Assembly: GCA_003222085.1 (NCBI GenBank)
Contig: QHUK01000014.1
Coordinates: 1-64,000, forward strand
Source of the DNA: Gemmatimonadota bacterium
GTDB taxonomy: Bacteria > Gemmatimonadota > Gemmatimonadetes > Gemmatimonadales > GWC2-71-9
Length of the DNA stretch: 64,000 bases
Direction of reading: 5' to 3'
Numbering within the stretch: position 1 is the first letter of the stretch; every line of letters begins with the position of its first letter. The position numbers were made by a program, and so were the translations under genes. Positions 6,938-62,287 of this stretch are shown piece by piece. The notes beneath the pieces were generated by a model. The model made no database searches and was not told where the DNA came from. It was given only the letters and a program-made list of their open reading frames with translations.

Positions 6938-7684
6938 TTACTGATCCACCACCCGCACGCCGGCCGGGGTGGAAAACGTGAGCTCGCGACCGGGCACGCC
7001 GGCGTTCACCCGGATGTTTCGCAGGATCACGGTGCGCTCCTGGCCGGAGCTCTCGACGATGTCGACACGATACACCAGCGCGTCCTCCCGACTCACCCAG
7101 ATCGTCGCTTCGCTGTAGGGCGCGTCGCGCCCCTTCGGCACGAGCCGGATGACGTCGAGGGTGCCCCCGCCCCCACCCACCCTGTCCGGCAGCGAGTCTG
7201 CCCGGACGTAGTGCCCCGTATAGCGCTCGCGCGGTTGCTCCACGAACTGTCCGATCAGATTGGGGCCGGTGGTGCCGTATTCGGGGATGCGTGACCGGAT
7301 GACCTGACCGGGCGTGGTGCTCGGCGTGTACAGCCAGAGGAAGCGGCCGTCCGCCACGATGCGATCACCCTTCGGGGCCGTGAACCGCATGGAGAAGCGG
7401 CTGGGGCGCATCTGGTACAGCCTGCCGCGCGTTGTGTCGGGCGTGCCGATCATCGGATTCGTGATGATCTGGACGAAGTCGGCCGAGAGGCTGGTGACCG
7501 TTTGATAGGTCTGGCTCGCGCGGTCGAGGATGGGCCAGGGGTCGGGGCTCTGGAGCGCGAGGGAGAAGCCGAGCGCGGCGATTGCGGAGTGCGGATTGCG
7601 GATTGCGGATTGTACGCGCGCGCGTCGTGCCGCGAACGGTCCCTGGCTGGGCCGACGCCATCCGATCAAATCCGCAATCCGCAT
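6938..7684 (-). CDS. lolA: Outer-membrane lipoprotein carrier protein LolA
   Basis: SLSADFVQIITNPMIGTPDTTRGRLYQMRPSRFSMRFTAPKGDRIVADGRFLWLYTPSTTPGQVIR; the N-terminal ~40 aa are repeat-derived. Confidence 0.85.
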   Translation of the reverse strand: MRIADLIGWRRPSQGPFAARRARVQSAIRNPHSAIAALGFSLALQSPDPWPILDRASQTYQTVTSLSADFVQIITNPMIGTPDTTRGRLYQMRPSRFSMRFTAPKGDRIVADGRFLWLYTPSTTPGQVIRSRIPEYGTTGPNLIGQFVEQPRERYTGHYVRADSLPDRVGGGGGTLDVIRLVPKGRDAPYSEATIWVSREDALVYRVDIVESSGQERTVILRNIRVNAGVPGRELTFSTPAGVRVVDQ

Positions 7685-7700
7685 TCCGCAATCCGCAATT
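7581..7700. repeat. Inverted array of 7-nt GCGGATT/AATCCGC units (arms 7581-7612 and 7667-7700)
   Basis: attgcggagtgcggattgcggattgcggattg ... aaatccgcaatccgcattccgcaatccgcaatt; imperfect inverted repeat. Confidence 0.9.
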
Positions 7701-24524: not shown

Positions 24525-24529
24525 GTCAG

Positions 24530-24601
24530 AACGCGGAAGTCGGAACGCGGAACGCGGAACAGTCGAGGTTGTTCCGCGTTCCCACTTCCGCGTTCCGCGT
24601 T
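24530..24601. repeat. Inverted array of 7-nt CGGAACG/CGTTCCG units between ychF and pth
   Basis: acgcggaagtcggaacgcggaacgcggaaca ... gttccgcgttcccacttccgcgttccgcgtt. Confidence 0.9.
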
Positions 24602-48263: not shown

Positions 48264-49097
48264 ATGGCCGGCACCCTGTACGTCGTGGCGACGCCGTTGG
48301 GCAACCTCGAGGACCTCTCCCCGCGCGCGGCCGCGACCCTGACGCGCGCGGCGGCGGTCGCGGCCGAGGACACGCGCCACACCAAGCCGCTGCTCGCCCA
48401 CGTCGGCTCCCGCGCCGAGCTCATCAGCTTCCATGCGCACTCGAGCGACGCGGCGCTGCGCCGAATCCTGCATCTGCTGGCGAGCGGTAAGGATGTGGCG
48501 CTCGTGACGGACGCGGGGACGCCGACGGTGAGCGACCCGGGCGCCCGGCTCGTCGCCGCCGCGCGGGAGCGTGACGTCCCCGTGGTCAGCGTCCCGGGGC
48601 CGACAGCCGTGGCGGCCGCGTTGTCGGTCTCGGGACTCGGCGCCGATCGCTACCTGTTCCTGGGCTTCGTCCCCCGCAAGGGCGCGGAGCGGCGGCGGCT
48701 GCTCGACGTGGTCGCGAAGAGCGAGTGGACGGTGGTGCTGTTCGAGGCGCCGCCGCGCGTGGCCGAGCTGCTTGAGGACCTCGCGGCGGCGTGCGGCGCG
48801 GAGCGACCCGCGGCCGTGGCGCGCGAGCTGACCAAGCTGTTCGAAGAGACCCGCGCCGGGACCTTGGCCGAGCTCGCGGGTTACTACGCCGAAGCGCCCG
48901 CCCGCGGCGAGGTGACGGTGATGGTGGCCGGCACCGGCAAGCCCGCGCGGGAGGAGCGCGCGTCGCCCCCCGACCCCGAGGCGCGGGCTCGCGCGCTGCT
49001 GGCCCAGGGGATGACGCGCCGCGACGTGGCCGAGCAGCTCGCGGTGGAGACGGGACTCACGCGCAATACGGCGTATCGGTTGGTGAACGAGCTGTGA
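48264..49097 (+). CDS. rsmI: 16S rRNA (cytidine(1402)-2'-O)-methyltransferase
   Basis: LYVVATPLGNLEDLSPRAAATLTRAAAVAAEDTRHTKPLL; ALVTDAGTPTVSDPGARLV; FEAPPRVAELL. Confidence 0.95.
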   Translation: MAGTLYVVATPLGNLEDLSPRAAATLTRAAAVAAEDTRHTKPLLAHVGSRAELISFHAHSSDAALRRILHLLASGKDVALVTDAGTPTVSDPGARLVAAARERDVPVVSVPGPTAVAAALSVSGLGADRYLFLGFVPRKGAERRRLLDVVAKSEWTVVLFEAPPRVAELLEDLAAACGAERPAAVARELTKLFEETRAGTLAELAGYYAEAPARGEVTVMVAGTGKPAREERASPPDPEARARALLAQGMTRRDVAEQLAVETGLTRNTAYRLVNEL

Positions 49098-49837
49098 AGC
49101 GCTTGACGGTCTTACTGTGCGTCCTCGCGCTGCCCTCTGCCGGCCGGCGGGATTGCGGATTGCGGATTGGCGATTGCGGATTCGTCGGGACCGAGGTCTC
49201 GTCCATTCCGCAATCCGCAATCCGCAATCCGCAATTAGCGTCTCTGACGATTGGCCGCCTGCACTATGACGGTGGGGGAGATTGGTACGCCGGCCCTTCC
49301 GCCCTCCCGAACCTCCTCGCGGCCCTCCGCCAACGCACCGCCCTCCCCGTCGCCGAGCGCGAGCGCGTCGTGACGCTCACCGGCCCCGAGCTGTGGGACG
49401 TTCCCTACGTCTTCATGACGGGGCACGGGAACGTGCATTTCTCGGACGACGAGGTGCAGCGGCTGCGTCGCTGGCTCGAGCAGGGGGGCTTCCTGCACGC
49501 CGACGACGACTACGGCATGGACAAATCGTTCCGCCGTGAGATCGCGCGGGTTTTCCCCGATCACCCGCTGGTTGAAGTCCCGTTGAGCCACCCCATCTAT
49601 CACCTGGTGTACGACTTCCCCAAGGGCATCCCCAAGATCCACGAGCACGACGGGCTTCCCGCGCAGGGCTTCGGTGTCTTTTTGGGGACGCGGTTGGTCG
49701 TGTACTATTCCTATCAGACCGACTTGGGCGACGGGTGGGAAGATCCGGAAGTCCACCACGACCCGCCGGAGCTTCATGAGGCGGCACTACGGATGGGGGT
49801 CAACCTGTTCACCTATGCCGTGAGCGCGACGCGGTGA
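49094..49837 (+). CDS. DUF4159 domain-containing exported protein
   Basis: GTG start, signal peptide KRLTVLLCVLALPSAG, then repeat-encoded linker, then LTIGRLHYDGGGDWYAGPSALPNLLAALRQRT...HADDDYGMDKSFRREI. Confidence 0.85.
   Translation: MKRLTVLLCVLALPSAGRRDCGLRIGDCGFVGTEVSSIPQSAIRNPQLASLTIGRLHYDGGGDWYAGPSALPNLLAALRQRTALPVAERERVVTLTGPELWDVPYVFMTGHGNVHFSDDEVQRLRRWLEQGGFLHADDDYGMDKSFRREIARVFPDHPLVEVPLSHPIYHLVYDFPKGIPKIHEHDGLPAQGFGVFLGTRLVVYYSYQTDLGDGWEDPEVHHDPPELHEAALRMGVNLFTYAVSATR
49151..49236. repeat. Inverted array of 7-nt GCGGATT/AATCCGC units inside the DUF4159 CDS (arms 49151-49182, 49204-49236)
   Basis: gattgcggattgcggattggcgattgcggatt ... attccgcaatccgcaatccgcaatccgcaatt; same unit as at 7581-7700. 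Confidence 0.92.
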
Positions 49838-62201: not shown

Positions 62202-62287
62202 TCGGGAAACGGGAAAGGGGAAACGAGAAACGTGATGCGGCGAGACGCGGTCAGACGTTTCCCGTTTCCCGCTTCCCGTTTCCCGGC
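62202..62287. repeat. Inverted array of 7-nt GGGAAAC/GTTTCCC units between tRNA-Ser and gltX
   Basis: cgggaaacgggaaaggggaaacgagaaacg ... cgtttcccgtttcccgcttcccgtttcccg. Confidence 0.92.

Follow-up and report, generated by a model that had tools for sequence, protein, structure and literature searches.

The hairpin at positions 49152–49235 of the 64,000-nt stretch of DNA from a Gemmatimonadota soil bacterium analysed here (the window) is an in-frame insert of tandem heptamers and their inverted copies in a gene for a DUF4159 protein. We consider it probable that this feature belongs to a dispersed class of non-autonomous palindromic repeats, which proteins tolerate and whose two arms evolve in concert. 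Repeats of this kind are usually filed as intergenic junk; here they lie within the reading frames of housekeeping and exported proteins, a case in nature of palindromic DNA contributing to proteins in hosts other than Rickettsia. The register is kept across genera while the repeated word changes in both arms, so that concerted evolution can be observed at one small locus.

The in-frame hairpin of the DUF4159 gene

The DUF4159 gene (49094–49837, + strand, 247 aa) starts with a GTG codon overlapping the stop codon of the upstream gene rsmI (48264–49097, + strand, PF00590 tetrapyrrole methylase domain), and a single open frame runs from this GTG through the hairpin to 49837. The frame opens with the putative signal-peptide segment VKRLTVLLCVLALPSAG (49094–49144, + strand), for which the hydropathy maximum, our proxy for the h-region, was 2.67 over LTVLLCVLALP. 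Direct reading of the sequence then gave a G-rich left arm (49152–49182, + strand) consisting of ATT and four GCGGATT-type units (GCGGATT, GCGGATT, GGCGATT, and GCGGATT), a loop of 22 nt (49183–49204, + strand) in which RNA folding also placed a small inner stem, GGGACC/GGTCTC, and a C-rich right arm of four inverted heptamer units (49205–49235, + strand), which the repeat search also recovered. When the inner stem was counted, the repeat search gave arms of 41 nt with 85% complementarity, and the RNA fold of 49094–49260 contained a long stem (−88.1 kcal/mol, z = −5.7). The DUF4159 domain (PF13709, aa 53–242) follows at 49250–49819 on the + strand, with a profile match of E = 1.1e−65 and 221 bits, against a cut-off of 25.9. 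An earlier note on this DNA had placed the GCGGATT hairpin at 49151–49236, bounds that proved essentially exact.

Downstream of the hairpin, direct reading found no in-frame ATG, GTG, or TTG before the conserved SLTIGRLHYDGGGDWY block, so a translation start after the repeat would lose that block; the sole later start option is a TTG inside the left arm. Most likely, the hairpin lengthens the N terminus behind the signal peptide, an addition that the protein tolerates and that is not a functional domain. Hairpin repeats also explain the heptad peptides, SAIRNPQ among them, of the proteins predicted here.

The DUF4159 protein was searched for in 103 genomes of the family, and the N-terminal junctions were read at the best 30 loci. 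In 27 of the 29 scorable orthologues, an NTGA start overlapped the rsmI stop; the distance from this start to the conserved LHYDGGG motif ranged from 27 to 207 nt and was in all cases a multiple of three with the frame open. The genomes are related, and these 27 are not independent events; they represent about 16 different lengths. The two exceptions were G017, in which the frame was shifted, and G010, in which the start had moved into the left arm. In G007 (L023) and G002 (L025), the hairpin and the signal peptide were both absent, and these proteins are apparently cytoplasmic. The orthologue data support in-frame coding and speak against ribosomal bypass, translation starting farther downstream, and a role as UTR alone. 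The proposal of the earlier note, an in-frame coding insertion between a signal peptide and the DUF4159 domain, is thus supported by the single open frame and by the frame kept across differing lengths; the upstream signal peptide, whose absence would have counted against it, is present in orthologues, and at the original locus translation starting after the repeat would lose the conserved block.

The word itself differed among the orthologues. GCGGATT hairpins occupied the DUF4159 junction in the genome under study (G000), G014, and G027; GCGGAGT/GCGGAAT hairpins in G020, G022, G024, and G025; GATGCGG hairpins in G017–G019 and G021; and a GCGGAAC hairpin in G028. Other relatives carried octamer hairpins at this junction (e.g., GTCGGACC, GGTTGGAC, GATGGAAC, and GGGCGGTT). 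GCGGATT is the insert in its own genome, as the earlier note had it, but it is not a conserved feature, since its place in orthologues is taken by other units of 7 and 8 bp.

Copies in the window, the genome, and other phyla

The window contains four hairpins of the heptamer type, not two, in three words (GCGGATT, GCGGAAC, and GGGAAAC). A second GCGGATT hairpin (7581–7699) lies at the DAHP synthase/LolA junction and reads into LolA; the earlier note had given it the same unit as the DUF4159 element (as 7581–7700), correctly. A GCGGAAC hairpin (24529–24595) separates pth and ychF at a site that is empty in other genera, and a GGGAAAC hairpin (62203–62285) stands between gltX and a tRNA gene, the latter read by eye; no strand is assigned to these three. 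With up to two mismatches, (GCGGATT)2 had 14 matches in the window, compared with 0.61 expected and a maximum of 2 in any of 100 shuffles. In the whole genome, exact (GCGGATT)2 occurred 29 times and the reversed-pattern control 0 times. The genome was examined for hairpins as sampled stretches, with genes around them called by a simple codon-usage caller: 16 hairpins were called in 464 kb, a density of about 30 per Mb, and a 400-kb subset held 13 of them versus 0 in its codon-shuffled control. The repeat is a genome-wide family with roughly a hundred dispersed copies. Two hairpins with a repeat period of 10 bp were also seen (L050:8916–8984 and L050:16905–16997), one of them within the GlcF linker.

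Across genomes, (GCGGANT)2 had 10–309 matches per genome versus 0–2 per strand for the reversed control. Exact GCGGATT hairpins were found, among the matches listed, on contigs named Gemmatimonadetes, Acidobacteria, Planctomycetes, Chloroflexi, Bacteroidetes, Nitrospirota, Proteobacteria, Hydrogenedentes, KSB1, and Opitutaceae. The same exact hairpin pattern had 0 matches in a viral contig collection, and virus-borne spread was rejected on this basis. Literature searches with the repeat strings found no report of them. One Chloroflexi contig carried a long TTGCGTA array of about eight units facing a similar inverted array (L188:5681–5878).

In-frame copies were present in UvrA, the LigD linker, PdxA, the GlcF linker, and the GlcD tail, and, beside putative signal peptides, in a DUF6807 protein and a PD40 protein; LolA also holds an in-frame hairpin. 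Neither strand of the common GC-rich units contains a stop codon, so a copy with a total length divisible by three is simply translated. Freedom from stops is by itself weak evidence for coding selection, because about 61% of random 7-mers with four G/C are likewise stop-free on both strands. Junction copies fitted closely between genes, with median gaps of 4 nt from the preceding stop codon and 13 nt to the following start codon; in the isolate Fibrella rubiginis, a like hairpin fills a stop–start junction. Codirectional junctions (20 of 23) did not differ from the background orientation of gene pairs (p = 0.59). In the genome under study, the purine-rich arm came first in 11/11 hairpins; the G-rich arm came first in 10 of its 11 period-7/8 hairpins, and in 47 versus 6 hairpins of other words and species with loops of ≤60 nt.

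Shared sites, changing words, and loops

Among related genera, the position of the hairpin at DUF4159, LolA, and UvrA was kept while the repeat unit was replaced, both arms having switched together. At the DAHP synthase/LolA junction, relatives had hairpins of differing words, and the heads of the LolA genes were open through the hairpins in the genomes tested; G099 LolA had no hairpin. Between two sister species of one genus, G019 and G020 (L086 and L088), the LolA loop showed 91% identity solely as the reverse complement, with a score of 38 against a shuffled maximum of 10.5 and a forward score of −1. Such an inverted loop is the outcome that recombination between the inverted arms would give.

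In 10 genomes, the UvrA interaction domain carried, always at the same position, an insert of exactly 4 + 4 heptamers, in four word types. The arms agreed more within a locus than between genera (0.88 vs 0.76; permutation p = 6.5e−4). By sequence alignment, the insert site is a short loop in solved UvrA proteins. One-armed versions occurred in G005 and G058, and the insert was absent from G086, G001, and G009. At this site, G025 (L284) carried an unrelated perfect palindrome, GTAGGGGCGCAGCATGCTGCGCCCCTAC, so several palindrome classes use one permissive loop. The pth/ychF hairpin was present in G000, G026, and G027 only, and the junction was empty in several other genera; a possible TGA duplication at the hairpin was inexact against the empty site.

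At unrelated loci of G000, G014, and G016, 8 of the 35 loops tested resembled one seed loop (p ≤ 0.01) and 27 did not. This likeness between loop sequences suggests whole copying of at least some elements. Furthermore, GCGGAAC occurred at all three loci (DUF4159, LolA, and UvrA) of G028, where GCGGANT doublets numbered only 10 genome-wide. Words correlated across loci in this way suggest an additional role for exchange between copies or for a trans-acting factor.

The position of the hairpin relative to the hydrophobic core varied with its type and gene. In DUF4159, heptamer hairpins followed the core, and in LolA they preceded it; of 19 octamer hairpins, by contrast, 18 held the core in the loop (DUF4159, 10/10; LolA, 6/7; CcmH, 1; M16 peptidase, 1). 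The placement "between signal peptide and mature domain" given in the earlier note consequently describes the DUF4159 heptamers, but neither the octamer alleles nor the LolA heptamers. An example of an octamer putative signal peptide is MRGVGPSDSRTVGLLLLAAVAVPSDRPTVRPSDA. The CcmH homologue and the M16 peptidase had their octamer hairpins at the gene start (L376:9673–9774 and L391:18927–19037); they come from sampled stretches of G009 and G016, and the genes were identified by eye. These cases suggest that the arms and loop of a hairpin can together make up a signal peptide. A bolder reading, which we hold only tentatively and think unlikely in full, takes the hairpins to be a recombining source of protein parts: octamers would be ready-made signal peptides, with the arms as n- and c-regions and the loop as hydrophobic core, loops would flip by recombination between the arms, and a dedicated factor would rewrite the word genome-wide while the sites are kept.

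Origin of the hairpins and comparison with known repeats

In the reading that we prefer, that of a tolerated, dispersed palindromic repeat, the element would be about 70–120 bp long and consist of G-rich tandem 7-bp units (with 8- and 10-bp variants), a short loop, and an inverted copy of the array. It would disperse by copying of the whole element through some activity, and copies would persist chiefly where an insert does little harm, namely in short junctions after a stop codon, signal peptides, surface loops, linkers, and tails. Slippage may maintain the tandem units, and the arms may stay matched because each templates the other during hairpin-templated or slipped-strand repair, with recombination between copies possibly contributing. 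No enzyme that could mobilise the element was found, a Y1 transposase match being absent from the element's own genome, and no clean target-site duplication was seen. Since most of the loops tested (27/35) were unlike the seed, the support for whole-element copying extends to a minority of copies. In some genomes, unit types are correlated across loci, which purely local copying from arm to arm does not predict. The tolerated-repeat reading also leaves the G-rich-first polarity unexplained, which counts against it, and the persistence of hairpins at DUF4159, LolA, and UvrA in many genera could reflect selection instead of tolerance.

A rival reading is that of a selected functional module, either an mRNA stem-loop or a G-quadruplex controlling operon expression, with the octamer form built into signal peptides. 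Tight placement after stop codons, the polarity, and retention across genera all fit such a module, as do the octamer hairpins, which almost always have a hydrophobic core in the loop, and passages of PMC4692102 describe G-quadruplexes formed in vitro by GGGAATC oligonucleotides. However, hairpin-free orthologues are common (G007 and G002 for DUF4159, G099 for LolA, and G086, G001, and G009 for UvrA), copies sit in loops of unrelated proteins, and codirectional junctions are not enriched; we give this explanation about one chance in several. Somewhat less plausible is that each hairpin arose where it stands, through slippage and template switching and without mobility, the words recurring by mutational bias. 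The one-armed UvrA inserts resemble intermediates of such an origin, or else decay products, and unit changes do happen in place, but a single heptamer present in dozens to hundreds of copies per genome, with the reversed word near zero, and similar loops at unrelated loci both call for copying.

An element of the REP/REPIN type moved by a RAYT (Y1 HUH) transposase would share the inverted pair with a short spacer and the intercistronic placement, and REPs too have been reported with intragenic copies in repair genes (PMC3733652). We nevertheless judge it improbable: neither G000 nor G019 had a Y1_Tnp match, no hairpin lay within 1.5 kb of 30 Y1_Tnp loci in relatives, a Y1_Tnp search of 18 genomes showed no association, and the units, with arms and flanks inspected by eye, are tandem heptamers without GTAG/CGTC-tagged palindromes. 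It is more improbable still that the hairpin is not decoded, whether through ribosomal bypass or as a 5′ UTR or promoter element with translation starting after it. Strong RNA folding at the 5′ end of the mRNA would suit this idea, but bypass would need no multiple-of-three lengths and the inserts have them, no start codon lies between the hairpin and the conserved domain, and the octamer-allele hairpins themselves encode the signal peptide by the hydropathy proxy. Bypass and a downstream start were rejected on these insert lengths together with the lack of a usable start. Assembly artefacts scarcely deserve credence even though most of the genomes are metagenome assemblies, for independent studies and phyla agree, frames are preserved, and the isolate F. 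rubiginis has a like hairpin.

The tolerated repeat described here shares features with three known families. Rickettsia palindromic elements (RPEs; Ogata 2000, 2002, reviewed in PMC10969869) are also palindromic, dispersed, and non-autonomous, and lie in frame within unrelated protein genes, with which they are fused in translation (PMC10969869); the hairpins here are likewise in-frame insertions in otherwise intact protein genes. In contrast, RPEs are about 150 bp long with an element-specific conserved sequence, whereas the arms here are tandem 7/8-bp units that differ between species at one site, in hosts spanning several phyla. Judged by the description of RPEs, variable heptamer or octamer arms in a Gemmatimonadota family take the place of an RPE-family sequence or peptide and a Rickettsia host.

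Passages of PMC4692102 describe GGGAATC in Xanthomonas and GGGGA(C/T)T in Nostoc as G-rich tandem heptamers, mostly intergenic and near ORFs. According to the same passages, Xanthomonas has 70–75 convergent (G-rich first) pairs per genome that can form stem-loops, 7–11% of its repeats overlap genes, and Nostoc repeats rarely form inverted pairs. Two convergent, G-rich-first tandem heptamer arrays close together are what we found as well; however, the units were GCGGATT, GCGGART, GCGGAAC, GATGCGG, GGGAAAC, and others rather than GGGAATC/GGGNATC, and those passages hold no mention of conserved in-frame inserts, unit turnover in orthologues, loop inversion, or signal-peptide hairpins. REPs, REPINs, and their RAYTs resemble the hairpins in having short inverted pairs in intercistronic DNA, some within genes, including repair genes (PMC3733652, PMC3116915), but a REP/REPIN is a 20–40 bp palindrome with a GTAG or CGTC tag, whereas the arms here are tandem heptamers, no tag was seen by eye, and no linked RAYT gene was found (no Y1_Tnp in G000, and 0/30 Y1_Tnp loci of relatives near a hairpin).

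The hairpins behave like RPEs, are built of DNA like the Xanthomonas heptamer pairs, and are placed at junctions like REPs; because they lack at least one defining feature of each, they belong to none of the three. We know of no coding hairpins among the STRR heptanucleotides of heterocystous cyanobacteria, which are 7-bp tandem units dispersed in the genome and in this respect resemble the repeats described here.
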